Source of the DNA: Prosthecobacter debontii
Lineage (GTDB): Bacteria; Verrucomicrobiota; Verrucomicrobiia; Verrucomicrobiales; Verrucomicrobiaceae
Direction of reading: 5' to 3'
DNA length: 64,000 bases
Assembly: GCF_900167535.1 (NCBI RefSeq)
Contig: NZ_FUYE01000002.1
Span: 124,001-188,000, forward strand
Both the position numbers and the translations under genes were made by a program. Under the pieces are notes generated by a model. It did not search any database. It had not been told where the DNA came from and saw only the letters and a list, made by a program, of their open reading frames with translations. Below, piece by piece: positions 2,879 to 53,820 of this stretch. Each line of letters begins with the position of its first letter. Within the stretch, counting starts at the first letter, position 1.

Positions 2879-5800
2879 TCACTTGCCAGCGACTTGACCA
2901 GCACCGGAGGGCAGGGTGCGGAGGCGGTGGCTGGGGCTGAGGCCGTATTTGTCGGGCTCATACATGGCCTCGATGCGGGCGGGTGGGGCGATGGTGTCGC
3001 CTTCGCCAGTTACGCGGGCCAGGTAGCGGAGCTGGAATTTGCCTTTCTCAGGGGCGTAGTCGGTGAAGAAGAGGGCACGGTCGGCACGCACCTCGCGGTG
3101 GTCGCAGAACCAAGCCCCGACGCCTTCCGGCAGTTGATCACCCTCACGCTCGTTTTGGGTGGCAAACTCGGGGTTGATGGCTTCTAGCACGCTCGGCAGC
3201 GGATCATTGATGGCGAGGTAACGATCTCCCCCACCGATCTCGATTTGCAGGGTGATCACGACCATGTCGCCGACGCGCAGGTTTTCGGCAGGGAGCATGG
3301 TGCCGTCATCTTGGAGCTTGTTGTAAGTGCGCTCGATGGCGAATCCCTTGTTCTCGCCTTTGAAGTCGCGATCTGGCGGATACGACACGGCCTCGATGCG
3401 GGAGAAAACTTCGCGCCCGGTGGGTAGGTCCACCTTCAGAGGAGCAGCGGAGAGCTGGTCATTGAGGGCAAAGGACACCTGGGCACTGCCCGGTGGGGTG
3501 GCGATGTTCAGGGGCTGCTCTTGAGCATCCCACAGCACCTTGGCCATGAGTGGCTCGGCGCTGAGCTTGAGGCTGCGCTCGTAGGCAGCCAGGGCGGTGA
3601 GAGTCCAGGCGTTGGTGAAGGTATTACCCCACTCGCCACGGCCATTGCGGCTTTGGAGAATGTTTTGCGCCAGGGTCTCGGCGTCCTGCTTCAGACCGAG
3701 GTGGGTGTAAACGATCAGGCGCAGGGCTTGATTGACCTTGTTACCGGCCCAGTGAGACCACGTAGGGGCGCTTGTCTTGGTGGGCAGGATCTTCTTGGTC
3801 TTCTTAGCTCCAGGCTTCTCAGGTGGTGGTGGTGGTGTCCAGCCGACCATTTCCTGGATTTGCTTGGAGGGAGCATCACTCAGGCACATGGCCAAGGCAG
3901 TGTAGAGGCGGGCGGCCTCGGGTAGGCGCTCGCGGCTTTCATGAAGCAAATTTTGGTAGGCGGGCTCAGCCTTTTTGCCTTTGGCCAGGGTGTAGAGTGC
4001 CAGCGCGCAGTCGGTGATGTTGTAGTAGTCCTTCTCCTGGTCCAGACCGCGCAGCTTTTTGGAGAGATACTCCAGCAGCTTGGTGGTGACCTCAGGCGGC
4101 ACGCTGGCTCCAGCGTCCTGGGCGCGCAGCAGCATGAGGCCGCCGTAGGCACTGGTCCAGAGGGAGGGCTCTTGGCCGCCGGGCCAGTAAGCGAGGCCGC
4201 CTTCATCGGTGACCATCTGCATGAGTCGATTCACCCCGCGCTGGATGGCCTCGCGGGTTTTGCCGGGCTCGATGAGCTCGGGGAAGAGGGTCTGATAACC
4301 GCCGAGCGCCAGCCAGGGCATGGTGGCGGAGGTGGTCTGCTCCGCGCAGCCGTAGGGGTAGGTGAGGATGTATTCCAGGGCGTCCTTGGCCTCGTAAAGG
4401 CGGGAGGTGCTCACGCTCACTTGCAGGCTGCCTTCTCCCTCCAGGAGGGCGGGATTGATCGGCTTGGCCAGGTTTTCCACCGGGCTATCGCCGCTGAGAC
4501 GGGCATAGCGTACTTCCTTGAGCTCAGGCACGGGATAAGTGACCTCGAAGGTAGAGATGGTGGCGTCATTCAGGGCGGGAGCACCAGCGGTCCAACTCAC
4601 GGTTTTGGCGGACCACTTCCACTGGGCGGTGCCCAGCTGGGTGAAACGCACGGGGTAGGCCACGGCGGTGGTTTCACCGGCCTTCACGGTGAGGGTTTGC
4701 TCCCACACTTTGGGATTGTCTTGCGCTTCGGGTTTAAGGCTCACGGGGATGAAGCTGCGCTCCTCGCGGATGAAGTCGGCGGAGTCATCCAGCTCCAGGC
4801 GCACGAGCACCTGGCCTTCATTCGCGGTGGTGTTATGGATCACGGCTTTCAGCAGAGTCTCATCCTCCAGCCGGGCAAAGCGCGGCACCACGGGGTCCAC
4901 CATGAGCGGCTTATTGACCTTGATGGCGGACTCACCACTACCGAAGAGATCCGCCCCGCTGCTGGCCACGGCCATGATGCGGTAGCGGGTGAGGTTATCC
5001 GGGGCGGTGACGCTGGCGCTAATCTTACCCTGGGCATCGGTGAGCACGGTGGCCAGCCAGAGAGGGGTGGCCACGAAGTTTTTCCGCACATCCATAGGCG
5101 GCTCTTCCATGTCTCCCCCTCCCCCAATGAGGAAACCTTTGTTACCCCGCTCACGGGCGGCGGACTCTTCAGGCAAGAGATCGTCAAAAGAGGTGTAGTT
5201 ATCAATAGCCAGTGGCATGGGCTCGTGGAAGTAGCTGGAGGGGTCCGGCGTCTGGTGCTTCATCAGGCTGAGCACACCTTCATCCACGGCATAAAGGGTG
5301 ACCTCACTGCTGGTGACGGGCTGGCCTTTAAAGTCGGTGACGGTGCAGCTGACGGTAAATGCCTGGGCAGGCTTCACCTCGGGCTGATCAGGTGCCACAG
5401 CCACGGTCAGCACCTTGGCCTGGGAGTCCACTTCGAGCTGGCAGTAGCCCACCTTGTATTCAGGCATCTTGTGCTGTTTCGGGCTGGCGTCACTGCCACG
5501 CACGAGGATGACGGAGACGAACACATTTGGTGCCTCCGCATCCTGCACGGGCACGCGGATGACGGGCTGCTCCGGGGAGATGGAGGTGATGAACTGGCGG
5601 TGGATGCTGTTACGCTCCACGCTCACCAAGGCGGTGCCAGCGATGGGGGTCTTCACCACGATCACGGCCTCTTCACCCGGCTTCAGTTTCTTTTTCTCCG
5701 GCTGGAGATTGATGCGCACGCCATCTTCCATGGCCCAGGGGAATTCACCACCACCCAGCACATACACGGGCAGGCGGGAGAGCATCTTTTTACCCATGGC

Positions 5801-8776
5801 ATCCACGGACTCGGCGGTGATGAAATACACCCCGCCACGTGCAGGGGTGAAGCGCACCATCGCCGAAGGGGGGCTGCCTGCAGAGGCGGCCTTCAGGGCC
5901 AGAGACTGCTTCAGCTCCTCCCGCAGGATGACCTGATCTTTTGTGGTGCTGCCACCACCAGCGGTGGCGATCTTCAGGGTGTGATATTCCTGGCGCTCCA
6001 CCTTCACATCCACCTGCACAGCACCTAGGGCTGGCTGGCCCTTTGAGTCAATGGCCACCAGATCCACCGCCACTTCCTGGCCGGCCGTGCCGAAGAACTG
6101 CGGGCCTTTCAGACCGAGGATGTAGGCTGCCCCAGGCACCTCGAATTCCGTGGCCGCGGTGATGGTTTGCTGATTGATGTCGGTGATCTCCGCCGTCACC
6201 CGCACCTGCTGCGGGAGCGAGGCGCGCTCAGGGGGCGGCATGGGCATCTCCAGGGTGGCGGTACCATCTGGGGAGAGAAAGACATCCCCGTTCACCCACC
6301 AGTCACTCTCTTCGTCGGTGTCGCTGTCATCATAGTGGCCTTCCGCATCGCGGTCCTTGCCATAGTTCGCCCAGCGGGGAGCTTCCCCAAAGTGATAGTC
6401 ATCAAAGCCAGAGGGGGCGGTGAAAGCGCGTGTGGAGTAGGCGGACCACGTGGCCTTGGCCTGGCTCAGGGCCTTGCCCATGTAGTAGTTGGCGCTGAGA
6501 GGCAGCTTCAGCCGATCCGCCAGCACCTCCAGCTTTTGGCCGTCCAGCTTCACCTCGAAACTGTTCGGCTTGTAGTCGTCAATGCGGAAGGAGTAGAAGC
6601 CGCTGGCCCCTTGATGATCATCCTCATTCTCTGCCGCATGGATCATCAGTTCATACCAGCCGAGCGGACCCTCCGGCAATTTGAAATCGTCCGCCCAGGA
6701 GCCATTGCCCGTGAAGGTGATTTCCTTCTCCACCACCACACGATATCGAGGATCGCGGATCACCACGCGGGCCTTGCTGCCTGCGGCGTCCAGCTTCAGC
6801 TCATCGGCGATGCGGGTGCGGCTGAGCGCCTTCACGTGCATGGTGTCACCGGGCCGATAGAGAGGTCGGTCGGAGAAGATGAAGGTCTTATTCACCGGCT
6901 TCCACACATCTTCCCAAGCCGTGGGGATATCATACGGGATGGCGCCGCCGATGTGGGAGCCGTTGCAGTCCAGCGCGGTGCAGTCGCCGGCTTTCTCCGC
7001 CAGGATCAGCGCGGGGTTGGGGCCCTTCATAATGGCGATGCCCTTCTCGTCCGTATCTGCATAGCTAATGAGCTTTTGCTCCGCATCCACCGCCGTCAGG
7101 CGCACGCCGCTGACGGGCTGGCCGGTCTGGAGCGAGGTGACGAAGACCAGGGTCTCCTTGCCATTGCTCTTTTGCATCAAACCGAGGTCGGTGAACTGCA
7201 CCAGCGTCTGCGTCAGCACGCCCTTTTGCTCCACGCCATCCGCCGCCCGTCCCTCGAACTCCAGGAACAGCGGAGCCGCTGCCTGCCCACCGAGCACCTC
7301 ACGCCAATTTAGGCGGATCATGTCGCTCTGGTCGAGGGGCTTATTGATCGGGAACGTACGCTCAAAGACCACCGTGCCGGAGTAGGCGTCGAAGGGTTCG
7401 GGCTTGAACGCGTTCTTCTTCTTTTCCTCCAGGTAGAAGGCGTTGCGGTAGGACTTGTATTTGTTCAGCGCCTGCAGAAGCTCCGGCCCCACGAGGCGCT
7501 TGGCCCGCACCCGGACCTCCCGCACATTGGCCGCCGAGACTTCGAAGTCGCCACTGCCCTTCGAGAGCTGCGTGCGCACAAAGGTAGGTGCGGCGACATA
7601 GGGCGCATTCGGTTTAAACGTCACCTCATTCTCCGACACCGCCTGGAGGGGCAATCCATCCCCCGAGACCATCCCCGGCTCCACCACCACCCGGTAGGGC
7701 GTGTGCAGGGAGAAGCCACCGCTGAGACGCAGGGAATAACCCACGATCTCGGCCTTCACCCCCGCCACCTCGGGCGTGATGTGCACCGCCCCGGCCAGCT
7801 TATCCGCCAGGGTTTGCAGTTCCTCTGGGGTGTAACCTTCATCCTTCGCAGGTAGCAGCGCTTTGTTAAAAGACACTTCCACATAGTAAGATTGGTCAAA
7901 AGGTGTGTGGGCACTCACGTTTCTAACGCTGAAAGGTTTCACGCTACCCAGCGAAACCTCATCCCCAACCGCCAGGGTGGCATAACCCGAAGCATTCACC
8001 AGCGAGGGGGAGATGACCAGACGCCACTTTTCCGCCACAGGCAGCGGCTCCGCAGGCTCCACCACGATGGCGCTCATGCGCGTGGCCTCGGGAGCGACGG
8101 TCGGTTTGACCTTGCCAATCTCCTCCGCCCACGTGGGCTGGGGTTCACTGTAGCGGGGGAAGTCCTTCCCCAACGCATGCCGCACCACGGCAGGGATGGT
8201 TAGCTTCGGATTCTCTGAGGTGAAGCTGATGTGAGCCACACTGTCGGAGGCATTGACATTGTCATTGAACTCGAAGAGAAACCGAGGCTTCCGACGTGCT
8301 TCATCATCGTTAAACCATTTGGGCGATTGATCGACGATGCGGAACTGCGCGCTCTGCACGGAGGCCAGAGATTCCGTGGAGAGAGCCTTGCCCTCCACAT
8401 CCCGCAGGCCCTGACGCAGGGCGAAGTCGTAGCTGGCATTGAACTTCGGCGTCTGAGTCAGCTTATACTGACCACTGCGCGTGCTCACCCACTGGAATTC
8501 ACCGGTGAGTGCCGGAGTCACCACCAGAGGAGATTCCGGGTCCACGCTGCCAATCTTTTCCTTCGCGATCATCGGCGTGGGGAATACGACCTCGATGGTG
8601 CAGTCCGGGGCTAACTCCGCCGGATGCATGTTCAACTCCGCCTCTAAGACCGGTTGAACACTGGGCTTCGATTCGACGCGGCTCTTTTTCACAGGAGCCG
8701 CCGGGGACACGGAGACGGGCAGCAGAGCTGCCAAACACAGGGCTGAAACCAGCCGACGACATGCAATGGTTTTCAT
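2879..8776 (-). CDS. Secreted bacterial alpha-2-macroglobulin, thioester type
   Basis: A 1965-residue envelope protein of the bacterial alpha-2-macroglobulin family, which traps attacking proteases by covalent capture. A Sec signal peptide covers roughly residues 1-26 and ends before APVKK. Macroglobulin-type beta domains fill the N-terminal two thirds, with an MG2-like segment near DRPLYRPGDTMHVKA. The thioester motif CAEQ lies in YPYGCAEQT at bases 4337-4348 (about residue 1477), followed by the alpha/alpha-toroid helices of the thioester domain and a C-terminal receptor-binding-like domain. The signal peptide lacks a lipobox cysteine, whereas E. coli YfhM is a lipoprotein, so this one may be free in the periplasm or secreted. 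An Asp/Glu-rich insert (DDSDTDEESDWW) lies near the middle. Proximity to pbpC fits the known link between the two families. Confidence 0.93.
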   Translation of the reverse strand: MKTIACRRLVSALCLAALLPVSVSPAAPVKKSRVESKPSVQPVLEAELNMHPAELAPDCTIEVVFPTPMIAKEKIGSVDPESPLVVTPALTGEFQWVSTRSGQYKLTQTPKFNASYDFALRQGLRDVEGKALSTESLASVQSAQFRIVDQSPKWFNDDEARRKPRFLFEFNDNVNASDSVAHISFTSENPKLTIPAVVRHALGKDFPRYSEPQPTWAEEIGKVKPTVAPEATRMSAIVVEPAEPLPVAEKWRLVISPSLVNASGYATLAVGDEVSLGSVKPFSVRNVSAHTPFDQSYYVEVSFNKALLPAKDEGYTPEELQTLADKLAGAVHITPEVAGVKAEIVGYSLRLSGGFSLHTPYRVVVEPGMVSGDGLPLQAVSENEVTFKPNAPYVAAPTFVRTQLSKGSGDFEVSAANVREVRVRAKRLVGPELLQALNKYKSYRNAFYLEEKKKNAFKPEPFDAYSGTVVFERTFPINKPLDQSDMIRLNWREVLGGQAAAPLFLEFEGRAADGVEQKGVLTQTLVQFTDLGLMQKSNGKETLVFVTSLQTGQPVSGVRLTAVDAEQKLISYADTDEKGIAIMKGPNPALILAEKAGDCTALDCNGSHIGGAIPYDIPTAWEDVWKPVNKTFIFSDRPLYRPGDTMHVKALSRTRIADELKLDAAGSKARVVIRDPRYRVVVEKEITFTGNGSWADDFKLPEGPLGWYELMIHAAENEDDHQGASGFYSFRIDDYKPNSFEVKLDGQKLEVLADRLKLPLSANYYMGKALSQAKATWSAYSTRAFTAPSGFDDYHFGEAPRWANYGKDRDAEGHYDDSDTDEESDWWVNGDVFLSPDGTATLEMPMPPPERASLPQQVRVTAEITDINQQTITAATEFEVPGAAYILGLKGPQFFGTAGQEVAVDLVAIDSKGQPALGAVQVDVKVERQEYHTLKIATAGGGSTTKDQVILREELKQSLALKAASAGSPPSAMVRFTPARGGVYFITAESVDAMGKKMLSRLPVYVLGGGEFPWAMEDGVRINLQPEKKKLKPGEEAVIVVKTPIAGTALVSVERNSIHRQFITSISPEQPVIRVPVQDAEAPNVFVSVILVRGSDASPKQHKMPEYKVGYCQLEVDSQAKVLTVAVAPDQPEVKPAQAFTVSCTVTDFKGQPVTSSEVTLYAVDEGVLSLMKHQTPDPSSYFHEPMPLAIDNYTSFDDLLPEESAARERGNKGFLIGGGGDMEEPPMDVRKNFVATPLWLATVLTDAQGKISASVTAPDNLTRYRIMAVASSGADLFGSGESAIKVNKPLMVDPVVPRFARLEDETLLKAVIHNTTANEGQVLVRLELDDSADFIREERSFIPVSLKPEAQDNPKVWEQTLTVKAGETTAVAYPVRFTQLGTAQWKWSAKTVSWTAGAPALNDATISTFEVTYPVPELKEVRYARLSGDSPVENLAKPINPALLEGEGSLQVSVSTSRLYEAKDALEYILTYPYGCAEQTTSATMPWLALGGYQTLFPELIEPGKTREAIQRGVNRLMQMVTDEGGLAYWPGGQEPSLWTSAYGGLMLLRAQDAGASVPPEVTTKLLEYLSKKLRGLDQEKDYYNITDCALALYTLAKGKKAEPAYQNLLHESRERLPEAARLYTALAMCLSDAPSKQIQEMVGWTPPPPPEKPGAKKTKKILPTKTSAPTWSHWAGNKVNQALRLIVYTHLGLKQDAETLAQNILQSRNGRGEWGNTFTNAWTLTALAAYERSLKLSAEPLMAKVLWDAQEQPLNIATPPGSAQVSFALNDQLSAAPLKVDLPTGREVFSRIEAVSYPPDRDFKGENKGFAIERTYNKLQDDGTMLPAENLRVGDMVVITLQIEIGGGDRYLAINDPLPSVLEAINPEFATQNEREGDQLPEGVGAWFCDHREVRADRALFFTDYAPEKGKFQLRYLARVTGEGDTIAPPARIEAMYEPDKYGLSPSHRLRTLPSGAGQVAGK

Positions 8777-41419: not shown

Positions 41420-41655
41420 TGCTGTTTGCAATTTAGGCGGTGTTTGCATGGAGGTGACAAACCAAGTCGGGCGCTATTTCTTGTTTGCCGGACATAATTG
41501 TTTGTTGCACTAAATGCCGGGGCCCATTGGCCATCACCCTCCCTTCATGCACCCTTTTTTTGAGCAGACGACGTTAGTCGCTCTGGCTATCGACGCATCT
41601 CGCAACCTCATTCACGCCAGCTCTGCCGCGAGCCGAGTTCTTGGATATTCGACCA
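41420..41655 (+). repeat. Second copy: leader and first ~45 codons of the PAS kinase
   Basis: Partner of the repeat at 41157-41380, offset 261-271 bp. It contains the presumed promoter/leader of the kinase and its start region. Conserved blocks are TGCTGTTTGCA, GAGGTGACAA, TGTTTGCCGGACA and TGTTGCAC. The 400-bp gap between the sulfatase and the kinase is mostly made of these two copies. Confidence 0.75.
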
Positions 41656-44216
41656 GCGAACTTCTTCAGCGCCCCTTCATCAGTCTGCTCCAGGCGCCTT
41701 CCAGCATCACACCGGCGGTTTTCCCTCACGAGCTGACCCAGGTGAGTCCGACCCAGCCGACTTGCTGTGATCTCACGCTGATTTGCCGTGATGGCCGACC
41801 TCTCCCCGCCAGCTTCAGCGTTTCCACCTATCTCTCTCCTGCCACAGGTAGCCAGCACCTCCTGCTGCTGATGCAGCCTCCGCTGAAAGCCCTCACTCAG
41901 CAGGTCACATCCAAGGAAGAACTCTTCCTCCGCGCCTCCCTCAATGCGCTCCCCATCGGCTTAGCCGTTCTCGATGGAGACGGCGTCATCGTCATCACCA
42001 ACAAGGCCTGGGGTCAGCCGGAAAATCAGGCTGTGCTTCCCTGGACGGCAGGCTGCCCGGGGGACAACTACCTCGATCTCTGCGAAAAAATCGCCGCCAG
42101 CGGCAGTGAACCCGCCCGCAACACCCTCGATCAGGTGCGCAGCGTCCTGGTCGGCCAGCTTGCCGAGGCCTGCATCGAGCTCAGCGGCACCTATCAGGAC
42201 GAGGAAAGGAACCTCCTCTGCAAAGCCACCCGCTTCCAAAACCACGGTCCCGTCCACGTCGCCATCACCCACGAGGACATCACCGCCATGCGCCAGACAC
42301 AGCGGCGGGCCGAGCGGAATCGCCAGCAATTCCAAGACCTCTTCGAGTGCGCGCCTGACGCCATGGTCATGACCAATGCCGAAGGCCTCATCACCCTCGT
42401 CAACCGCCAGGCCGAGCAGCTCTTCGGCTACCAGCGTGACGAACTCATTGGCCAACCCGTGGAGATCCTCATGCAGGAGCAGACCCGCCGGAGCCACGTC
42501 GGCCTGCGCCAGCAATACCTCGCCTCCGCCATCCCCCGCCCCATGGGCGTCGGCCGCTCCAATCTCAAAGGCCGCAAGCGCGATGGCTCCGTCTTCCACG
42601 TGGACATCAGCCTCAGCCCCATGCAGTCGGACCACGGCCCCCAGGTCGTCGCCGCCGTGCGGGACATCACCGAGCGCGTGCAGGCGGAAAGCCAGGTCCG
42701 CCAAGCTCTGGCCATGCTCAATGCCACCGATGACGGCGCCTTCATCTTCCAGCCCGAGACCCTGGCCTTCATCTTTGTCAATGAGGGAGCCACTCGTCAG
42801 CTCCAGTATAACCGCGAGGAGCTCCTCGGCATGACCGCCCTGGATATTCTGCCCGAATATGATGAGCCCCGTCTGCGCAGTCTCCTCCAGCCCCTCCTGA
42901 CCGGAGAGAAGACCGTCCGCCGCGTCACCACCCAGCACCGCACCCGCAGCGGCAGCCAGCTCCCGGTCGAGATCAGCCTCCAGGTCGTCACCACCGAGGA
43001 AGGCCAGCGCCGCTGCATCGCCATCGCCCGCGACATCACTGAGCGCCTCCAGCGCGAGCGCAAGGAGCGCCGCACCCAGCGTCTGGAAAGCATCGGCACC
43101 CTCGCCGGCGGTGTCGCGCATGACCTCAACAACGCCCTCACCCCCGTCCTCATGATCTGCGATCTCCTCAAAGAGCGCTACCCTGAGGCCGCCGAACTCC
43201 TCCACACCGCCGAGTCCGGTGCCCAGCGCGGGGCCGACATGGTCCGCCACCTCCTCACCTTCTCACGTGGCGTCGAGGGCGAGCGCCAGCCCGTCAGCCT
43301 CAGTGATCTCTTCAATGAGATCGCCTTCATCATCAACGGCACCTTCCCGAAGAACATCCAGCTCCACCTCCAGCACTCCCCCGGGCTCAATCTCGTCCTC
43401 GGAGACCCCACCCAGCTCCACCAGGTCATCCTCAACCTCTGCGTCAACGCCCGCGACGCCATGCCTACCGGCGGCAGCCTCAAAATCACCGCCGAAAACA
43501 TCCAGCTCCACGCCCCCCTCATCGGCGCCCAGCCCGAGTCCCCCGCCGGCAGCTACATCGTCTGCCAGATCAGCGACACCGGCCTCGGCATCCAGCCCGA
43601 GCTGCTCGACCGCATCTTCGAGCCCTTCTTCAGCACCAAAGGGCCCGACCGCGGCACCGGCCTCGGCCTCTCCACCGCCCTCGGTATCATCCGCAGCCAT
43701 GGCGGCTTCATCCGCGTCGAGTCCACCCCCGGCCAGGGCTCCACCTTCTCCATCTACCTCCCCGAGGCCCCCCTCAGCAGCGACTTCCTCATCGATCTCG
43801 ATCCCCCGCCCGCCCCCGCCAGCAGCAGCGACTACACCGGCCAGGGCCAGCTCATCCTCATCGTCGATGACGAGCCCGCCGTGCGCGACACCATCACCAC
43901 CGTCCTCACCGCCCTGAACTACCGCGTCCTCGCCGCCGCCGACGGCACCGAGGCCATCATCCACGCCGTCGAGAACAAGGACTCCCTCCACGCCGTCATT
44001 ACCGATCTCCACATGCCTGAGATGGACGGGCTGAATTTCGTCCGCGCCCTCCGCCGCATCATCCCCACCACCCGCGTCATCGTCGCCAGCGGTCGTTTTG
44101 AGCCGCCCCAGGTCCAGCAGTTTGAGCTCCTCGGTCACTGCACCCTCCTGCCCAAGCCCTTCACCCAGCCCCAGCTCCTGGAGGCCCTCCACCACGCCCT
44201 CCACGCGTCTGTGTAG
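41514..44216 (+). CDS. Four-PAS hybrid histidine kinase with C-terminal receiver
   Basis: A 900-residue cytoplasmic kinase. Four PAS domains (~10-120, ~140-255, ~265-385, ~395-515) are followed by HisKA (V-A-H-D-L-N-N-A-L-T-P near 545), HATPase_c (G-T-G-L-G-L-S-T-A) and a receiver (~785-900; acceptor Asp in A-V-I-T-D-L-H-M-P-E-M-D-G, Lys in L-L-P-K-P-F). From about 42.0 kb the third codon position is overwhelmingly C, far more than in neighbouring genes, and this gives long spurious antisense frames. The start could also be ATG 41547 (M-H-P-F-F-E-Q), since no convincing ribosome-binding site precedes 41514. The target is unknown; the gene has a decayed duplicate of its own 5' end upstream. 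Confidence 0.9.
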   Translation: MPGPIGHHPPFMHPFFEQTTLVALAIDASRNLIHASSAASRVLGYSTSELLQRPFISLLQAPSSITPAVFPHELTQVSPTQPTCCDLTLICRDGRPLPASFSVSTYLSPATGSQHLLLLMQPPLKALTQQVTSKEELFLRASLNALPIGLAVLDGDGVIVITNKAWGQPENQAVLPWTAGCPGDNYLDLCEKIAASGSEPARNTLDQVRSVLVGQLAEACIELSGTYQDEERNLLCKATRFQNHGPVHVAITHEDITAMRQTQRRAERNRQQFQDLFECAPDAMVMTNAEGLITLVNRQAEQLFGYQRDELIGQPVEILMQEQTRRSHVGLRQQYLASAIPRPMGVGRSNLKGRKRDGSVFHVDISLSPMQSDHGPQVVAAVRDITERVQAESQVRQALAMLNATDDGAFIFQPETLAFIFVNEGATRQLQYNREELLGMTALDILPEYDEPRLRSLLQPLLTGEKTVRRVTTQHRTRSGSQLPVEISLQVVTTEEGQRRCIAIARDITERLQRERKERRTQRLESIGTLAGGVAHDLNNALTPVLMICDLLKERYPEAAELLHTAESGAQRGADMVRHLLTFSRGVEGERQPVSLSDLFNEIAFIINGTFPKNIQLHLQHSPGLNLVLGDPTQLHQVILNLCVNARDAMPTGGSLKITAENIQLHAPLIGAQPESPAGSYIVCQISDTGLGIQPELLDRIFEPFFSTKGPDRGTGLGLSTALGIIRSHGGFIRVESTPGQGSTFSIYLPEAPLSSDFLIDLDPPPAPASSSDYTGQGQLILIVDDEPAVRDTITTVLTALNYRVLAAADGTEAIIHAVENKDSLHAVITDLHMPEMDGLNFVRALRRIIPTTRVIVASGRFEPPQVQQFELLGHCTLLPKPFTQPQLLEALHHALHASV

Positions 44217-44327
44217 GCCCGCTAGCGTTTTTCCCCACATCCGCCCGCCACCTGGGTCAAAATCCCAGCCGTCATGCTAAAATCCTCTTTACCCCCTGTC
44301 ATCTTCAGGCGAAAACCGAGGCAGGAC

Positions 44328-46217
44328 ATGACCACGCGGCCCGTCATCTTCATCTCTGCTGTTTCTAAGGAGCTCAAAACAGCGCGCGACCACGTCGCCA
44401 AGACCCTCATCTCCCTCGGTTACGAGCCCAAGTGGCAAGACATCGCCCCCACCGAGACCGGCAACCTCAGCGGCGTCCTGCGCAAGTGGGTGGATGACTC
44501 CCAGGCCGTCGTCCAGCTCATCGGCAAATGCTACGGTTACGAGGCCCCCCAGCCCGACCCCCAGTTCGGCCGCTGCAGCTACACCCAATACGAAGCCCTC
44601 TACGCCCGCAGCCGGGGCAAGAAAGTCTGGTATCTCCCCGTCGGTCCCGACTACACCTGCGACACCTGCACCGACGAACCCGAGGAGTTGCGACAGCTCC
44701 AGGCCGACTACCTCCAGCGCATCCGCGCCCAAGGCGACCTCCGCCACGGCTTCGCCAGCCCCACCGAATTGGAAAACTTGGTCCTCAAGCTCCGCGACGA
44801 CCTAGCCCGCCTCCGCCGCTGGTCCTACCAAGGGGCCATCGCCATCCTTGTGCTTCTCCTGCTCGTTGCAGGGGGAATCGTTTGGTTACAAATAGGGCAA
44901 CAGCAGACCCACCAGACGCAGAAGCAGTCCCTTCAAAACGACGATCAGATCAAAGAAGACATCGCCGATGTAAAGCGCATTATCGCCGATTTTAACCAAG
45001 CTGCCGACTACCTCATTAAAGGTGGCAGTAAAGAAAAACTCGCCCAAGAATACGATAGCGTCCTGCGATTTACCGCCAAGCGGTGGAGTATACCAGCCAC
45101 CCGTCTGCATAACCTTATCGAGGCCAATACAGCTAGTATTCTTAGCGATCCAAACATTTCTCTTCTAGTCAAAATCGGGGCGCTAAGAGATGCTGGCCAA
45201 TTTATTGAAGCACGTAATCTTGCAGTCCAAGGAGCTAAAAACCTTGAAACAGTTCAAGTAGGTCAAACTCATGAACAAGTTCAGTTATGGATAGAATCCT
45301 CCATTTCCGAAATCCAGTTAGGCAATTATGAGCAAGCTTATATATATGCAAAAAAAGCGGACAGCTTAGCAAATCGAGAAGATCATTTTGAGACATGGGC
45401 TTCGGCTCGCCATACTTTGGGAAGAACACTGATATTATTGTCCCGTTATAAGGAGGCCCTGGAAATCTATAATGAAATCCTGCCTTTACGTCAAAAGGAA
45501 CTAGGAGATGAAAATGAGGATACCCTCATGACACGAAATAATAGGGCTTATGTATATGAAAAAATGGGAAACCATAAACAAGCCTTAGAGGAACATACAA
45601 AGGTTTTTGAAATCAGGAAACGAACTTTGGGGGAATATCACAAAGACACAATTCAAAGCCGAAGCAATCTGATAACAGTACTATATAGACTAAACAGATC
45701 TAAAGAAGCCGAGCAACTTGCTAGAGGCACTATTGAATTACTAGAAGATAAATATGGAGAAGATAGTCTAGAAGTTTCATCTGAACGGCTAAATCTTGGA
45801 AATACATTATTTTCTCAGGAAAAATACATTGAGGCCGCAAAAGAATATCAAAGGTCAGCCGAGATAAAATCTCGCCTTTTGGGGGCCGAACACCACGGGA
45901 CGTTAATGAGTCGAATGGGCCACGCCAACGCTTTAAATGAACTAAAACAAAGTAAAGCAGCAGAAGTTGAACATAGGATTGTATTAGCCTGTCTAAAACG
46001 CACTTTAGGCCCTGACCATGCAGATGTATTGCTAGCGAATCACAACCTAGCATTGACATTGGAAAATCAGGAACGCTACCACGAAGCACTGACCTTCATG
46101 AAAGGTGCATATGAAGGAAGATTAAAGATCTTTGGATCGGCTCATTGGCTTACGGAATACTCCTTGGACGGCTGCAAACGACTAGAGAGGGAGATAAAGG
46201 AAGCCAAGGCCAATTAG
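44328..46217 (+). CDS. DUF4062-transmembrane-TPR protein, compositionally chimeric
   Basis: From ATG 44328 (GAGGCAGG upstream is a good ribosome-binding site) the product has 629 residues. Residues ~5-95 match DUF4062 (V-I-F-I-S-A-V-S-K-E-L-K-T-A-R and V-V-Q-L-I-G-K-C-Y-G-Y-E-A-P), a TIR-like fold found in NTPase and defence/signalling proteins. A single membrane helix (~164-189) follows, then a low-complexity linker and at least six tetratricopeptide repeats of the kinesin-light-chain type (H-x-D-T-L, L-G-x-E-x-H-x-x-T patterns). Up to about base 44,950 the gene is C-rich like the kinase upstream. After that it is AT-rich with different codon use, so the sensor half appears to have been swapped in. 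No nucleotidase or NTPase domain is joined to it. A receptor-like protein with an intracellular effector is inferred. Confidence 0.8.
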   Translation: MTTRPVIFISAVSKELKTARDHVAKTLISLGYEPKWQDIAPTETGNLSGVLRKWVDDSQAVVQLIGKCYGYEAPQPDPQFGRCSYTQYEALYARSRGKKVWYLPVGPDYTCDTCTDEPEELRQLQADYLQRIRAQGDLRHGFASPTELENLVLKLRDDLARLRRWSYQGAIAILVLLLLVAGGIVWLQIGQQQTHQTQKQSLQNDDQIKEDIADVKRIIADFNQAADYLIKGGSKEKLAQEYDSVLRFTAKRWSIPATRLHNLIEANTASILSDPNISLLVKIGALRDAGQFIEARNLAVQGAKNLETVQVGQTHEQVQLWIESSISEIQLGNYEQAYIYAKKADSLANREDHFETWASARHTLGRTLILLSRYKEALEIYNEILPLRQKELGDENEDTLMTRNNRAYVYEKMGNHKQALEEHTKVFEIRKRTLGEYHKDTIQSRSNLITVLYRLNRSKEAEQLARGTIELLEDKYGEDSLEVSSERLNLGNTLFSQEKYIEAAKEYQRSAEIKSRLLGAEHHGTLMSRMGHANALNELKQSKAAEVEHRIVLACLKRTLGPDHADVLLANHNLALTLENQERYHEALTFMKGAYEGRLKIFGSAHWLTEYSLDGCKRLEREIKEAKAN

Positions 46218-46754: not shown

Positions 46755-47540
46755 CTACAGCTTGCGTTTATAGCCGTCGCAGCGGTTGTGCCAACCGGCG
46801 AGCCAGCGCTGCTCCTTGCGGGCAGGCGGGGCGTTTTTCACACGGCGGGTGAGGACGGCTTTGGCGGAGTCGGCAAAGGCGGCGGGGGTGGCGGCTTTCA
46901 TGCCTTCCAGCACCTGGAGGAGGCCCCAGCCCTGGCCGTTGTAGCGCTCGGAGGGGGCGGTGCCTTCGCCTTTGAAGTTGACATAATCAATGAGGCAGAA
47001 GGCACCTTCGGGGCTGCCGAGGAGGGTCTGGAAGCGCGACTCGACAAGCTGGGGCTGGGTGGACGCGGCCTTCATCTTCGGCAGGGCACGCTGGAGTCGG
47101 GCGATGATGAACTCGGTCTGGAGGCCGACGGTTTCACCGAGCAAACGGCGCAGTTCCCTCTGGCGCGGGCCTTCGCGGTCAATCAAGAAAGCGCTGCGGC
47201 TGGACCAGGGACAGGGGCCGTGGGTCCAGTCGGGCACCTGGACGCCGCGCTGGGCGAGGAAGGCAGCCAGAGGCGGGAAGCTTTCTTCAAAGGGGCCGCG
47301 TTTGCCCTGCGGATACCAGATGAAGTGGCCGATGCCGAGGGAGGCGAAGTCCTCGCCCATGTTCCAACTGGTGAGCCCCTCCACGGTGCCGCCACATTCG
47401 TTCTGCCAGATGCGCTGGCCCACCCGCTGGAGCTGGGGTCCGGTGAGTTGCGGGCCGGAGCCGGAGATCTGCGGCACCTGAGCGCAGGCGCTGAGGGTGA
47501 GGAGGAAGCCGGAAAGGGTGAGAAAGCGTCGGGCGGTCAT
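46755..47540 (-). CDS. Conserved lipoprotein, possible lysozyme-like fold
   Basis: A 261-residue lipoprotein: the signal peptide ends in the lipobox L-S-A-C at about residue 19. The most conserved-looking region is I-W-Q-N-E-C-G-G-T-V-E-G-L-T-S-W-N-M-G-E and S-L-G-I-G-H-F-I-W-Y-P, where an N-E-x-G and an N-x-G-E-D-F motif could hold a catalytic Glu as in lysozyme-like enzymes. I do not recognise a named family, and the catalytic suggestion is weak. It stands alone, divergent from the FHA-coiled-coil operon. Confidence 0.75.
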   Translation of the reverse strand: MTARRFLTLSGFLLTLSACAQVPQISGSGPQLTGPQLQRVGQRIWQNECGGTVEGLTSWNMGEDFASLGIGHFIWYPQGKRGPFEESFPPLAAFLAQRGVQVPDWTHGPCPWSSRSAFLIDREGPRQRELRRLLGETVGLQTEFIIARLQRALPKMKAASTQPQLVESRFQTLLGSPEGAFCLIDYVNFKGEGTAPSERYNGQGWGLLQVLEGMKAATPAAFADSAKAVLTRRVKNAPPARKEQRWLAGWHNRCDGYKRKL

Positions 47541-47696: not shown

Positions 47697-50600
47697 ATGC
47701 CTTATCTGGCCTTTAACCTCAATGATGGGAACGAGTTTGTCTTCGACCTGCTCGATGAGCGGTTATCCATCGGCCGAGACATCAAGAACGACATCGTCAT
47801 CGATAACACCTACATCTCGGGCTTTCACGCGGAGTTCGTGCGCCAAGCGGACGGCGGTTATGAGCTGGTGGACCTGAAGTCTTCGAACGGGACCTTTGTG
47901 AATGGCAAGCGGGTGGAACGTAGCCGGGTGAAAGGAGGGGACAAGATCCGTTTCGGTCAACTGGACTCGCGCTTCCGCGAGCGGGCCCCGAAAGGCACAG
48001 CCCCAGCCACGGAGGTGAAACCCGCCACGGCGAGTAAGGGGAGCCCAGCACGCACCGATGGCCGCCGAGGTGATACGGAATCCATCCCGGCTCGGGATGC
48101 GAAGCCGAGCGAGAACACTAGCCCGATCGAGCCCACGAAGCTGCCCCTGGCCCGGTCGGACGCGACCGCCAAAGGCCCCTCGGTAGCGCCGCCACCGATG
48201 GCACCGATCTCCCGCCCTGCCACCCTGGACCCCGCCCTGCAAAAACAGGCGGAGGAACTGCGGGAGGAACTGGCGAAACTGAAGCAGGAGCGCGATCTGC
48301 TGCGCACTGAAAATGAGAAGGAAGCCCGCCGCCGGGATGAGGTGCGTGCCCTGGAGAAGCAGATCGAAGATCACCGCAAGACCATGGCTGAAACGGAGCA
48401 GAAACTCGCCAGCCTGAAGACGGCTCTCACCACCTCCGAGACCGATGTGGCCGGACTGGACGGCAAGCGCCGAGAAGCCGCCAACCTGGAAAGCGAACTG
48501 GAGAGCACTCGCAGCGAATTGGGCAAGGTGCAGACCGACATCGCCATGGCCACCAAGAGCCTGCAATCTCTCCATACGGAAGCGGATCAGGTGAACACCG
48601 AGCGCAGCCGCCAGCTCAAGGAAAAGGAAGCACTGGCCGAAGAACTGGCTGCTCTGCGCAAGCAGATCAGCGAAGCCGAAGCGACTAAAACCGCCGCCAG
48701 CCAGCAGCAGGTGGAGGCGAAGAAGGCGGAAGCGGAAACACTGAGCAGCCGTGGTGCTGAGCTGGCGGATCTAGAAAGCCGCCTGACCTCCCGCCGTGAG
48801 GACCTCGCCTCGCTGGAGAAGCAGTGTGAGGAAGCCTCCTCCAAACTGAGTGGCCTGAGCACCAAGAGCACGCAAGCTACGGCCACTCACGAGAAGCTGA
48901 AAGCGGAACAGCTCCAGCTGGAGAACCAGATCAAGGATCTGCACCAGCAGCAGGAGAAACTGAAGGCGGAGCAGTCTCAAGCGGAGGCCACGGCCCAGCA
49001 AAAGCTGAGCGAGATCGAGGTCCAACTCCGCACGAAGACGGAGGCCGTCAAAGCCCTGGAAACCCGCGAGGCGGACCTCACGAATAAACTGGATGACCTC
49101 GCCTCAGCCGACAGCCGGCTCGGCACTGCCACGGAAGCGTTGAAAGCAGTGGAATCTCACAAGGCGGAGATCGCTGCGGCCATCATCCAGATCACCCAGG
49201 AGCGGGATAGCCTGACGCGCGAACTTTTGACCACCACCGAGAAGGGCAAGGCCCAGCACAGTCTCACGCAGACGCTGGTGACCCGGCGGGAGGCCCTGGA
49301 GAAGCAGATCCAAGAACTGTCCACCCAGCAGGAGGCTGCCTCGACCACTCTGGGAAAAACCCGCGAGGACTTGCGTCAAGTCGAGACCCATCTCACCGAA
49401 CGGCAGGAGGAGAAAAAGAAGCTCGAGGCCGCGGAGAAACGTCTCCAGGACCAGACCACCACCCTGCGCCAAGAGGTGACGACTGCGGAAACCAAGCTGG
49501 CAGAACTGAAAAAGCAGGTCGCGGCTCAAGAGGATCGGGTGAAGACCCTGAATGACGAAGAGAAAAAGCTGGCGGAGATCCGTTCCGCACTCGTCACCAG
49601 CACGCAGGAGCGGGACAAGGTGCAGAGTGAACTGCAAAACCTCACCCTCCAACAGACCGCGCAGGAAAACCGCCTAACCACCCTCAAAACAGACGTGGAG
49701 AAGGTGCAGGCCGACCTCGCCACCAAGCTGAAGGAATTGGCGGAGGCCGAGAGCCGCACCCAAGCTCTGAAAAAGGAAGCCGAAGCCCTAGACATCCAGG
49801 TGCGCGAGCACGCCGACATCCAGAGCAAGCTGGAGCAGACCCGCACGTCCCTCACCAGCGCCACCGAAGAGCGCGAGAAGCTCACGGCCATCCTGGCCCC
49901 GCTCATCCAGCAGCGCGAAGATCATGAGAAGACCCTCCCGGGCCTGAAAGCCGAAGCCGAGGCCCTGCGCGCCGAGATGACGACGCTTTTACGCGATAAG
50001 CAGTCCACCATGGCCGCCCTGGAGAAGGCCCAGACGGATCGTAAAGCGGCCCTGGATCAGACCGATGCCCTGCGCAAGGAAGCCGCCAACCTGGAAAAAC
50101 TGCTCTCTGACAAACGCAGCAGCCTCGAAGCCGAAACGGAGGCCAAGCTCGCCGAAGCCACGGCCGCGGAGACCCGCCTGAAGGACCTACAAAACAACAT
50201 CGAAGCCGCCGAGAAACGCACCGTCGGACTGGCCGAAACCGAGAAGAAACTGGCCAGCGCCACCCAGGCCCTGCAAGAAGCTGAAAAGCGCCGTCAGACG
50301 GAAGAAAAGACCCTGACCGACCTAACTCGTCAGCAGGAGAACTTGCGCTTAGAGATCGCTCGCCTGCAGGCTGAGGCGCAGAACCACAACACGCAGATTG
50401 TGGATCTCGGCAGGAAGAGTCATAGCGAACAGACGCGGCTCGCCGATCTGGTGGAGAAGTTTGAGAAAGCCCAGACGGCCCTTCAGACGGCGGATTCTAA
50501 GCGCTTAGAAGCCGAAGCCTCCCTCGCCAAAGCCCGCGAAGAAGAAAAGATCCTGCGCAAGCAAGTCCCTGCACTCAACACGGAGGTGGCCGGTCTCCAG

Positions 50601-51923
50601 GCCATGCTGGTCGGGCTGAACAAAGAACGCGACGAAGCCTCCCAGTTCGTCATGCGGTTGAATGTCGCCACCGAGAATAACAACAAGAAACTCGGCGAGC
50701 TGCAGCAGCAAATTTCCCAACTCGAAGAGGCCCACAAGGTCCGTGAAGAACGCCTGATGAAAGCCCAAGCCGAGGTGGATCGTGAAGCCGCCCGCCTGAA
50801 GACGGCTCAAGAAGCCACCCGCGCCGCCGAGCTTGCCCAGCAGGAAGCTGAAAAGGAGACCAAAGAAGCCCGAGCCAAAGCCGATGCCGCCCGCACCCAA
50901 TCCACTGGCCTGGAGACGGAGCTCAGCACCCGCATGGACCGCATCGAGAAGCTGAAGCTGGAGGAGACACGGATGCAGAAGGAAGTGGAAGGGCAGAAAC
51001 TGGAAATCCAGGGAGCCCAAGCTGTGCTCGCCGAGCTCAACGACAAAATCCGGCACGAAGAGAGCCGCCTCTCCGAATTCACCCAGGTGGGCGGTAAAGT
51101 CCTCACCCTCGGGGCGGTGCTGGCCGGACTGGAGACTCGCCAAACCGAAGCCGGTAAGACGCTCCGCGATGCTGCCGAACGTGAGCTCGCCCTCCAAGTG
51201 AAGATCAATGCTCTGCAAGAGGCTGTGAACCGGGAGACCTCGCGGGCTGAGCAGATCAAAAAGGAACGAGTCTCTCTCGAAGCCGAACTTTCTGAGGCCA
51301 CCCAAAAATCGGAGAAGCAGCAGGCGGTCCTCAAAGCTCAGGAGTCCGAGCAACGGAAACGCCTAGCCGAAAACGAGCAGCAGCTTCACGAGCAAATCGC
51401 CCATACGGAACGGCTCAAGGCCGAACTCGCGGACCTCAATGATCGCCGGGCTGAATTCACCCAAGCCGAGGCTCAACTCCGCCACTGGCAGGAGATCGAG
51501 GCGCGCCTGCGCGGACAACTCCTGGAACTGGAAGAGAAGCACGAGATCATGCGCCGCGGCCTCTCCACCGAGGATTCCACCGTGATCATGTTCGCCAATG
51601 ACATCATCAAGCGCATTGACTTGATCGATGCGCTGTCCTCCCGCTATGCCGGACACAACGGCGGCGACGTGGTTTCTCAGATCCGCACCCTACGTCATTC
51701 GTTCGAGGATATCCTGCTCCAGCACGGCATCAGCGAGTTTGACATCACAGCAGGCACCGAAGTGGACGTGGATCTGCGGAAGCGCATCACCGTCGTGGAA
51801 TCCGTGCCTGGCAAAAATAAGCCACGCGTGGTGGAAACCTGCCGCTCAGGGTTTATCTACTCTCGCGAGGAAGGCCACGAGGTCATCCTCCGCAAAGTGG
51901 AGGTGCGAACCTCCAGTCAGTAA
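47697..51923 (+). CDS. FHA domain, ~1100-residue coiled coil, GrpE-like C-terminus
   Basis: A 1408-residue protein in three parts. Residues ~15-95 form an FHA phosphothreonine-binding domain (L-S-I-G-R-D-I-K-N-D-I-V, S-G-F-H-A-E-F, K-S-S-N-G-T-F-V-N-G). After a Pro/Ala-rich linker, residues ~180-1290 are almost continuous heptad coiled coil rich in Glu, Lys, Gln and Ala. The last ~100 residues look like the GrpE head: L-R-H-S-F-E-D-I-L-L-Q-H-G-I-S-E-F-D-I, then V-V-E-T-C-R-S-G-F-I-Y-S-R-E-E-G and V-I-L-R-K-V-E-V-R. GrpE is itself a long-helix dimer ending in such a beta head that opens the Hsp70 nucleotide pocket. The next gene, 29 bp on, is an Hsp70. FHA and coiled coil are certain; the GrpE relation is inferred from pattern and context. 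Confidence 0.88.
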   Translation: MPYLAFNLNDGNEFVFDLLDERLSIGRDIKNDIVIDNTYISGFHAEFVRQADGGYELVDLKSSNGTFVNGKRVERSRVKGGDKIRFGQLDSRFRERAPKGTAPATEVKPATASKGSPARTDGRRGDTESIPARDAKPSENTSPIEPTKLPLARSDATAKGPSVAPPPMAPISRPATLDPALQKQAEELREELAKLKQERDLLRTENEKEARRRDEVRALEKQIEDHRKTMAETEQKLASLKTALTTSETDVAGLDGKRREAANLESELESTRSELGKVQTDIAMATKSLQSLHTEADQVNTERSRQLKEKEALAEELAALRKQISEAEATKTAASQQQVEAKKAEAETLSSRGAELADLESRLTSRREDLASLEKQCEEASSKLSGLSTKSTQATATHEKLKAEQLQLENQIKDLHQQQEKLKAEQSQAEATAQQKLSEIEVQLRTKTEAVKALETREADLTNKLDDLASADSRLGTATEALKAVESHKAEIAAAIIQITQERDSLTRELLTTTEKGKAQHSLTQTLVTRREALEKQIQELSTQQEAASTTLGKTREDLRQVETHLTERQEEKKKLEAAEKRLQDQTTTLRQEVTTAETKLAELKKQVAAQEDRVKTLNDEEKKLAEIRSALVTSTQERDKVQSELQNLTLQQTAQENRLTTLKTDVEKVQADLATKLKELAEAESRTQALKKEAEALDIQVREHADIQSKLEQTRTSLTSATEEREKLTAILAPLIQQREDHEKTLPGLKAEAEALRAEMTTLLRDKQSTMAALEKAQTDRKAALDQTDALRKEAANLEKLLSDKRSSLEAETEAKLAEATAAETRLKDLQNNIEAAEKRTVGLAETEKKLASATQALQEAEKRRQTEEKTLTDLTRQQENLRLEIARLQAEAQNHNTQIVDLGRKSHSEQTRLADLVEKFEKAQTALQTADSKRLEAEASLAKAREEEKILRKQVPALNTEVAGLQAMLVGLNKERDEASQFVMRLNVATENNNKKLGELQQQISQLEEAHKVREERLMKAQAEVDREAARLKTAQEATRAAELAQQEAEKETKEARAKADAARTQSTGLETELSTRMDRIEKLKLEETRMQKEVEGQKLEIQGAQAVLAELNDKIRHEESRLSEFTQVGGKVLTLGAVLAGLETRQTEAGKTLRDAAERELALQVKINALQEAVNRETSRAEQIKKERVSLEAELSEATQKSEKQQAVLKAQESEQRKRLAENEQQLHEQIAHTERLKAELADLNDRRAEFTQAEAQLRHWQEIEARLRGQLLELEEKHEIMRRGLSTEDSTVIMFANDIIKRIDLIDALSSRYAGHNGGDVVSQIRTLRHSFEDILLQHGISEFDITAGTEVDVDLRKRITVVESVPGKNKPRVVETCRSGFIYSREEGHEVILRKVEVRTSSQ

Positions 51924-51952
51924 CTTTCTTTTGATTTAGCATTCTTTTTGTT

Positions 51953-53443
51953 ATGGCAGAATACGTTGGCATTGACCTCGGAACCACGCTCTCCGGGCTC
52001 GCTTATCTAAAACCGGATGGCAATCCGGAAATCGTTCCCAATTCCGATGGCGAACGGCTGACGCCTTCCGTCGTTTTCTTTGAGGCGCACGAAGACATCA
52101 AGCTTGTGGGTAGCCCGGCCCGGGATGGTGGCGACCCTGATCGCACGGTCTTCCAGATCAAACGCCACATGGATGACCCCGAGTATCTGGTGGAAATCGA
52201 TGGCAAGAAATGGACCCCCGCCGAGATCTCCGCCCTCATCTTGGCCAAGCTCAAGCGCGATTGCACCAAGATCATCGGCGACATCAACGAGGTGGTCATC
52301 ACCGTGCCGGCGAACTTTAACGAACTGGCACGTAAGAGCACCATCGCTGCGGCAGAGATGGCGGGCATGCGCGTGCGTCGCCTCGTGAATGAACCGACCG
52401 CAGCCGCGGTTTATTATGCGCATCACCAAGGGGTGAAGGGCCGCATCCTGGTCTATGACTTGGGCGGTGGCACCTTGGACGTGACCATCCTGCAGGTGGA
52501 GGGCGATAACATCCGCATCCTCACCAGTGAAGGCGCACGCCATCTGGGCGGCAGCAACTTCGATGATCTACTGCTGGAGTCCTACGCCGAGCAATACACG
52601 AAGCAGACCGGTGCTCCCTTGTATTCCGATGAGCGCCATCGCCGCCGTGTGTTGCTGGCCACCGAAGACGCCAAAAAGATGCTGTCGAAGCTGCAACGCG
52701 TGAATGACACCGTGGCCAATGACAAAAACGATGGTCTGGCTCGCATTGATCTCACTCGCGATGGCTTTGAAAAAACGATCCGGCACATGCTGACCCGCAC
52801 CGTGATGCTGGTGGAGCAGGCTCTGGATTCCGCCAAGCTCAAAGCCTCGGAGATTGACCATGTGGTGTTGGTCGGCGGCTCGACGCGTATTCCCAAGGTC
52901 AAAACCATCTTGGAGAAGATGTTCGGGAAGACCCCGAAATCCTGCGGCAACGTAGACGAATGCGTGGCCCTCGGTGCTGCCTTGTTCGCCAAAAAATCCT
53001 CCCGCATCCAAGAGGTGTGCAATGCCAGCTACGGCACGGTGGCGATGGTCTATAACGCCAAGACGGGTGAGGAAAAACTGATGAACTCCATCGTCATCCC
53101 AAAGAACACCCCCATCCCCTGCTCACGCACGCAGGTTTACCAAACCAGCGAGGATAATGAGCGCGTGATCGAGGTGGACATCACCCAGGGCGAGGATGAA
53201 GACGCGAAGTTCGTGGACATCATTGGCCGAATCACCCTGGAAGTGCCGCCCAATCGCCCTAAGGGTTGCGAAGTGGCCGTGACCTTCAGCTACGATGAAA
53301 ACCAGCGCGTGCGCGCCCTGGTGGTGGACAAGCAATCGGGCCGCAGCCGTGAGGTGGCGGTCAGCTACAAGGGGGCTGGCGTGCTCTCAGACGAAGACCT
53401 TAAACGCAAGAGCGCCCACCTGCGCACCATGCGCATCGAGTAA
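51953..53443 (+). CDS. Short Hsp70-family chaperone
   Basis: A 496-residue Hsp70. The ATPase signatures are intact: Y-V-G-I-D-L-G-T-T-L-S, V-Y-D-L-G-G-G-T-L-D-V and V-V-L-V-G-G-S-T-R-I-P. About 130 residues of substrate-binding beta domain follow, but the alpha-helical lid is missing (DnaK has ~640 residues), so substrate holding must differ from DnaK. The linker after F-A-K-K-S-S-R-I-Q-E also differs from the DnaK D-V-L-L-L-D-V type, which may alter allosteric coupling. It is the middle gene of a three-gene operon between the FHA/GrpE-like protein and a J-like small protein, and is a specialised paralogue rather than the housekeeping DnaK. Confidence 0.92.
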   Translation: MAEYVGIDLGTTLSGLAYLKPDGNPEIVPNSDGERLTPSVVFFEAHEDIKLVGSPARDGGDPDRTVFQIKRHMDDPEYLVEIDGKKWTPAEISALILAKLKRDCTKIIGDINEVVITVPANFNELARKSTIAAAEMAGMRVRRLVNEPTAAAVYYAHHQGVKGRILVYDLGGGTLDVTILQVEGDNIRILTSEGARHLGGSNFDDLLLESYAEQYTKQTGAPLYSDERHRRRVLLATEDAKKMLSKLQRVNDTVANDKNDGLARIDLTRDGFEKTIRHMLTRTVMLVEQALDSAKLKASEIDHVVLVGGSTRIPKVKTILEKMFGKTPKSCGNVDECVALGAALFAKKSSRIQEVCNASYGTVAMVYNAKTGEEKLMNSIVIPKNTPIPCSRTQVYQTSEDNERVIEVDITQGEDEDAKFVDIIGRITLEVPPNRPKGCEVAVTFSYDENQRVRALVVDKQSGRSREVAVSYKGAGVLSDEDLKRKSAHLRTMRIE

Positions 53444-53481
53444 ACCGGCACTCGCCCTGCCCAACACACCCCCCGCACGCC

Positions 53482-53820
53482 ATGTTCAAAAAGATCCTCC
53501 AATCCCTGTCCAAATCGCAAGCCGCCAAGCCCACCGCCGCAGCTCCCCCACCGCGCCAGGAAACCGCGAAACCCGGTGAAGTGCTGCAGAAGATCTCCAA
53601 GGTCAGCCCTGCGTCCGCAGCCCCTGTGGAGAAAACCCCCGATGAGCTGTGCGAAATCGCCCCGAAGACTCCCAAAGATCAAGTCCAAGCCCGGCTCAAA
53701 CTGCTTTACCGACGCTACAATCGTGGTGCTTCCAGCCTCGACCCTAAAATCCGCGCCGAAGCGGACCTCATGCTGGATGCCATCGTGAAAGTACGGGAAA
53801 AGTATTTTGGCGAGATTTGA
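53482..53820 (+). CDS. Small protein resembling a J-domain without HPD
   Basis: A 112-residue protein. Residues 1-50 are low complexity (Ala/Pro/Lys). Residues ~53-110 can be laid over a J-domain: D-E-L-C-E-I for Y-E-V-L-G-V, helix II Q-V-Q-A-R-L-K-L-L-Y-R-R-Y ending in the conserved Tyr, then N-R-G (80-82) where HPD should be, and helix III A-D-L-M-L-D-A-I-V-K-V-R-E-K-Y. HPD is essential for stimulating Hsp70 ATPase, so this would be a J-like binder rather than an activator. The similarity is modest and seen by eye. It follows the Hsp70 gene by 38 bp and completes a K-E-J-like set. Confidence 0.7.
   Translation: MFKKILQSLSKSQAAKPTAAAPPPRQETAKPGEVLQKISKVSPASAAPVEKTPDELCEIAPKTPKDQVQARLKLLYRRYNRGASSLDPKIRAEADLMLDAIVKVREKYFGEI

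Follow-up and report, generated by a model that had tools for sequence, protein, structure and literature searches.

In the standard Hsp70 scheme, the HPD motif of a J-protein drives ATP hydrolysis, the helical lid closes and GrpE resets the cycle. Canonical GrpE forms dimers that have a long helical stalk, and J-proteins of the DjlA type have a transmembrane (TM) segment, a TerB domain and a J-domain in this order. In DnaK, the HPD aspartate targets R167, a residue that also pairs with D393 of the interdomain linker and with D481 of the substrate-binding domain (SBD) (PMC7289447). DnaK without its lid binds and releases peptides 10-100 times faster (PMC7083937). Among eukaryotic systems, Ssz1 of the yeast RAC (Ssz1-Zuo1) likewise lacks a lid, has an unusual linker and is completed by a J partner; it does not hydrolyze ATP and does not need a classical exchange factor (PMC7083937). 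Because some J-like proteins, Pam16 among them, act without HPD (PMC11349236), the loss of HPD alone does not amount to a loss of function. In bacteria, mainly actinobacteria and firmicutes, GAP1-N2 GTPase systems carry extra HSP70 and GrpE genes in an accessory locus, and some of them have a further HSP70 lacking the peptide-binding domain, and DnaJ fusions (PMC7159879). Here, we describe a bacterial locus in which an FHA-coiled coil-GrpE protein, a lidless Hsp70 and a small J-like protein are encoded side by side.

Results

The window analyzed is a 64,000-nucleotide stretch of the Prosthecobacter debontii genome (contig NZ_FUYE01000002.1, positions 124,001-188,000). Three co-directed genes occupy positions 47697-53820 of its plus strand (Table 1), and the ORF listing gives intergenic distances of 29 and 38 bp, in agreement with the original prediction of three close genes on one strand. 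Elsewhere in the genome are canonical-type genes: one grpE, two of the dnaJ type, a dnaK and a further long hsp70. The three-gene locus is thus an additional set. Purifying selection acts on each of the three genes, with dN/dS ranging from 0.02 to 0.18: it is 0.18 in the FHA-coil-GrpE gene (one pair; a second pair was saturated), 0.02-0.04 in the Hsp70 and 0.08-0.11 in the J-like gene. Because these ratios are low and the genes are conserved, a pseudogene or chance ORF can be ruled out. A known anti-phage defense system was also ruled out, as PADLOC has no model that matches the products of genes 2 and 3 or the GrpE-like domain. Upstream of the locus and divergent from the FHA gene is a gene for a 261-aa protein with no Pfam match (46755-47540, minus strand), which has a clear homolog at the same place in the lake metagenome-assembled contig L067 (1447-2259). 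Further away are a DUF4062 and TPR protein of 647 aa (44274-46217) and, adjoining it, a PAS/histidine-kinase/receiver hybrid (41514-44216).

Table 1. Positions of the three genes, their domains and motifs in the window, and of the related clusters in remote lineages
Feature	Position	Strand	Basis
Gene 1, FHA-coiled coil-GrpE protein, 1408 aa	47697-51923	+	ORF, Pfam
FHA domain, residues 24-87	47766..47957	+	Pfam PF00498 (E 4e-19); 25-homolog alignment
Coiled coil, about residues 181-1239	48237..51413	+	Hydrophobic period, Pro+Gly content
GrpE-like C-terminal domain, residues 1240-1408	51414..51920	+	PF01025, hhalign, PDB profile match
Gene 2, lidless Hsp70 (ATPase domain and SBD-beta), 496 aa	51953-53443	+	ORF, Pfam PF00012
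Rewired interdomain linker, residues 354-361 (EVCNASYG)	53012..53035	+	Alignment; replaces DVLLLD of DnaK
Gene 3, HPD-less J-like protein, 112 aa	53482-53820	+	ORF, homolog alignment
Basic amphipathic conserved N-terminus (MFKKILQSLSKS)	53482..53517	+	Alignment, hydrophobic moment
J-like helical core, residues 53-109	53638..53808	+	Alignment, hhalign, AlphaFold
N80-R81-G82, at the aligned HPD place	53719-53727	+	Alignment
GrpE-like/lidless Hsp70/TerB-J/M48 clusters	L070 7400-11826; L071 2967-9252; L167 6244-11111		

The C-terminus of gene 1 is firmly identified as GrpE by sequence profiles, as the original prediction had claimed. PF01025 covers residues 1240-1389, and the excised domain scores 33.6 bits against the Pfam cut-off of 25.8. 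In a profile-profile comparison with canonical GrpEs, which came from the loci of relatives, hhalign gives a probability of 94% (E 1.5e-7). Moreover, when a profile of 12 GrpE-like ends was searched against all PDB chains, the top match was E. coli GrpE (1dkg_A, E 2.3e-5) and the second was GrpE 4ani (E 0.007); a phmmer search of the PDB with the GrpE domain of the window alone found no match. An AlphaFold model of this end, built from three sequences, shows three helices followed by strands, the order expected of GrpE. Because its pLDDT is only 54 and its structural matches are generic helical bundles, this model was left out of the evidence. From these profile matches, the domain is predicted to exchange ADP.

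At the other end of the same protein, the FHA domain retains the phosphothreonine-binding residues G26, R27, S41, H44, N64 and G65, each at least 95% conserved among 25 homologs, and the protein may dock on phosphothreonine targets. In the genome, 28 genes score above the Pfam cut-off for Ser/Thr kinases, and in one relative (G053) a Ser/Thr kinase gene of 919 aa (L171, 2459-5218) is convergent to the FHA-coil-GrpE gene. The suggestion of a chaperone targeted by phosphorylation would fit these three observations.

The two ends are connected by a coiled coil with a heptad-type hydrophobic period of 3.5 residues and a Pro+Gly content of 2.4%. A DNA tandem repeat was considered as its source and ruled out, since the DNA has no such repeat. 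If the coil of about 1070 residues were one unbroken helix it would span ~159 nm, which is an upper bound because glycines and a few prolines break the helix. Judged on total protein lengths only, the coil varies hugely among the FHA-GrpE homologs, from 294 aa in L039, which has no coil, through 477, 621 and 1262 aa up to 2086 aa in L054, and both ends are retained throughout. Of the two roles first proposed for the coil, this variable length between constant ends therefore points to a spacer, and a filament fits less well. Since canonical GrpE is dimeric with a long stalk, the coiled coil can be read as an extension of a GrpE-type stalk.

Gene 2 is an Hsp70 without the helical lid, as predicted. 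It matches PF00012 with E 2.5e-102 up to position 509 of the 599 in the profile, and all 11 aligned orthologs have the same C-terminal end point. In NCBIfam, DnaK models rank first, far below their cut-offs. In E. coli DnaK numbering (the reference sequence was verified at known positions), the catalytic residues K70, E171, D194, T199 and D201, as well as P143 and R151, are retained in 57 of 57 lidless orthologs. The canonical linker DVLLLD is absent, and E-V-C-N-x-S is conserved instead: E388, V389 and N391 are invariant, 56 of 57 have C at position 390, and the position of D393 holds S or G. R167 is retained in the clade of the window, where its linker and HPD partners are lost, and is replaced by G in L071 and L147. 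Position 481 is uninformative in the lidless set because canonical DnaKs also often have N there. In a maximum likelihood tree, 12 lidless and five remote Hsp70s form one clade with 100/100 support, apart from 25 canonical DnaKs, with the caution that the branches are long. One remote copy (L071, 5312-6907) has altered N-terminal catalytic positions.

It is also evident that the small protein carries N-R-G where HPD would be expected: N80 is invariant in 21 aligned homologs, and HPD is absent from all of them and from the homologous tails of remote proteins. AlphaFold predicts helices at residues 53-56, 65-83 and 88-109 (pLDDT about 80-92 in this block; as for the GrpE end, from a shallow alignment of window and related-locus sequences), and N-R-G is inside helix II of the model, not in a loop. 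Compared with J-domains, the model reaches Z 5-6 (5.6 for the DnaJ J-domain 5nro_B and 5.4 for Tim16 2guz_B), and ribosomal hairpins of the uL29 type and designed hairpins reach equal values. The small protein has no match in Pfam, and its profile has none in the PDB. When aligned by hhalign with 66 canonical J-domains, it matches in register and weakly (probability 1-16%). This score was reached by 0 of 150 column shuffles of the J-like set with the remote tails, by 1 of 150 for the J-like set alone and by 2 of 150 for the remote tails alone. The remote tails (E 4e-9 in G232 and 3e-4 in G420) form the C-terminal part of longer proteins, in which a hydrophobic, TM-like segment lies at the N-terminus; the proteins in L071 and L167 also have TerB, which Pfam did not detect in the G232 protein. 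In the order of the window, the place of the hydrophobic segment is taken by an N-terminus that is basic and mostly amphipathic (weak in L040), through which the J-like protein may contact the membrane. A J-like nature was thus favored by the in-register profile match, the hairpin and the DjlA-like remote layout, with unrelated hairpins fitting the model equally well; a relationship to J-domains is plausible, not proven. The J-like protein may couple to the Hsp70 without HPD. Taken together, the altered Hsp70-GrpE-J triad that was originally proposed stands for the Hsp70 and the GrpE, and is plausible and unproven in its J-like part.

To describe the distribution of the genes, we searched 56 genomes, the counts of which are phylogenetically non-independent. 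The J-like gene was found in 38 genomes and the Hsp70 in 35 (E<=1e-130). In the three discordant genomes (G025, G038 and G050) the J-like gene is near a contig end, in G050 with a partial Hsp70; when these loci are allowed for, both genes are present in 38 genomes and neither is in 18. The Hsp70 and J-like genes are thus strictly linked, being kept or lost together over the 56 genomes, and in this respect the expected conservation of the genes was found. The GrpE-like profile has a match in 40 of 56 genomes. Among the 38 genomes with the pair it has no match in G025, G038 and G050, at contig ends, or in G040, in which the FHA-coil ORF ends without GrpE. The FHA-coil ORF at L044 (8647-11874, 1075 aa) has no GrpE domain and is followed by lidless Hsp70 and J-like genes. 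Among the 18 genomes without the pair, it is present in G007, G017, G021, G036, G039 and G055; the contig of G017 stops just past the GrpE-like gene, and G021 is 52% complete. FHA-GrpE without lidless Hsp70 thus occurs in G007, G036, G039 and G055, and no Hsp70 is found among the FHA-GrpE neighbors in G007, G036 and G039. In G024 and G120 the Hsp70/J pair is present with FHA-GrpE on another contig, and of the two Hsp70/J loci in G052 only one adjoins FHA-GrpE. A strict tie of FHA-GrpE to the other two genes is ruled out by solitary FHA-GrpE genes, and the assumption of a fixed trio did not survive, given these genomes and the remote triads without FHA described below. The loci L173, L174, L175 and L176 have solitary FHA-coil-GrpE genes with no adjoining lidless Hsp70 or J-like gene.

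The order FHA-GrpE, Hsp70 and J-like recurs across families of the bacterial order. The closest relative of the Hsp70 (91% identity) is in the lake contig L067 (CAMCWM010000110.1), followed by Verrucomicrobiales and Verrucomicrobiia records. The record of L067 is titled Akkermansia muciniphila, a label that looks wrong because its Hsp70 is 91% identical to that of the window, yet none of the sampled small-genome relatives of family f2 has the locus.

Related clusters are found in more remote lineages. In L071 (Kiritimatiellae), L167 (G516) and L070 (Planctomycetota), genes for a GrpE-like protein, a lidless Hsp70, a TerB-J-type protein and an M48-type peptidase follow each other in this order, with two lidless Hsp70 genes in L071; the cluster itself appears to be an undescribed operon. 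Pfam detects TerB in both L071 and L167, and M48 in L071; in L070, the TerB-J and M48 genes were assigned by alignment to those of L071 and L167 and by reading the sequence. G232 (L147) has the GrpE-like, Hsp70 and J-like genes and no M48. The GrpE match of the short protein in L071 (E 6e-4) is below the cut-off and that in G232 is 16 bits, so the GrpE call is weaker in these lineages. FHA is absent from all four remote triads (L071, L167, L070 and L147), which suggests that the GrpE-like/Hsp70/J-like core is probably older than the FHA fusion. The TerB-J protein is found in 2 of 193 genomes in a survey of the class of G420, a Kiritimatiellae-type record of the same phylum as the window, and a plasmid search for this protein found none.

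Discussion

We tentatively favor, at a probability of roughly 0.4, a dedicated Hsp70 cycle that would run beside the DnaK-GrpE-DnaJ of the cell, with a GrpE-type exchange factor tethered by a phosphothreonine reader. The GrpE end would dimerize via its long helix, extended here into the coiled coil, and the FHA heads at the far end would anchor the exchange factor to targets phosphorylated on threonine. Nucleotide exchange may then be concentrated at phosphorylation-marked places, with the coil setting reach and not specificity. Given the faster peptide exchange of lidless DnaK, contacts of the Hsp70 with clients would be weak and quick, and it would serve not as a clamp but as a transient holder timed by ATP. 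The J-like protein would bind the Hsp70 through a changed interface matching the changed linker, with no HPD trigger, and its basic N-terminus may keep the Hsp70 near the membrane.

The small protein could instead be an unrelated helical hairpin that binds the Hsp70, the set then being an Hsp70, its exchange factor and a private adaptor. The missing Pfam and PDB profile matches, the equal resemblance of the model to uL29-type and designed hairpins, and a helix II that continues through N-R-G all agree with such an adaptor. However, the in-register J-domain match was reached by only 0-2 of 150 column shuffles, homologous tails end proteins of DjlA layout (a hydrophobic segment, with TerB in two), and the small gene is always beside an Hsp70, which make this explanation somewhat unlikely. 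A scaffold like RAC, in which a non-cycling Hsp70 similar to Ssz1 is stably complemented by the J-like protein and the GrpE-like end serves as a structural dock, not in exchange, seems unlikely: this Hsp70 has lost the linker and the D393 position, R167 is also lost in remote members, and the L071 copy at 5312-6907 has altered catalytic positions, as such a scaffold would have, but the catalytic residues are retained in 57 of 57 orthologs and GrpE is kept, neither of which Ssz1 would call for.

Because FHA-GrpE occurs without the lidless Hsp70, it may also serve canonical DnaK or have another role. That FHA-coil-GrpE brings canonical DnaK to phosphorylated sites, the lidless Hsp70/J pair being a separate two-protein device, would explain why FHA-GrpE stands alone in four genomes (G007, G036, G039 and G055) and lies apart from the pair, on a different contig, in G024 and G120. 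This is improbable, since the order FHA-GrpE, Hsp70 and J-like recurs in several families, and GrpE-like genes directly precede lidless Hsp70 in the remote lineages without FHA.

Returning to the dedicated cycle, a wider form of it would be a separate family of Hsp70s in Verrucomicrobiota and Planctomycetota, which would run a full ATP cycle without lid or HPD, and which in Verrucomicrobiales would have its exchange, and so client release, at phosphorylated sites through a phosphothreonine-docked arm of varying length. This wider form is unlikely. Since lid, HPD and canonical linker are lost together and the ATPase and GrpE are kept, the locus offers a natural test of which parts an Hsp70 cycle needs. 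Furthermore, an exchange factor joined to a phosphothreonine reader by a freely varying spacer could be a direct link between bacterial Ser/Thr kinase signaling and chaperone action.

Comparison with Known Systems

A search of mostly open-access literature for a set of FHA-GrpE, lidless Hsp70 and J-like protein found no description, which is weak evidence; PMC7159879 describes other Hsp70/GrpE loci. The locus resembles canonical DnaK-GrpE-DnaJ in having an Hsp70 ATPase with SBD-beta, a GrpE domain and a small partner at the place of the J-protein, and differs in that the lid and HPD are absent, the linker is changed and GrpE is fused via a coil to FHA. With yeast RAC it shares a lidless Hsp70, an unusual linker and a J or J-like partner of its own (PMC7083937); in RAC, however, Ssz1 hydrolyzes no ATP and the J-domain of Zuo1 works, whereas here the catalytic residues are retained, HPD is absent and GrpE is present. 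As in mitochondrial Pam16/Tim16, to which the model is similar (2guz_B, Z 5.4), a J-like domain without HPD is found beside an Hsp70, but Pam16 pairs with the true J-protein Pam18 and no such partner gene is seen here. The remote relatives have the hydrophobic segment-TerB-J-like layout of DjlA-type J-proteins; unlike DjlA, they have no HPD, and the window protein has lost both TerB and the TM segment. Finally, the locus and the GAP1-N2 GTPase systems (PMC7159879) are alike in placing extra HSP70 and GrpE genes in an accessory locus, and unlike in that here there is no GTPase, GrpE is fused to FHA and the SBD-beta is retained.
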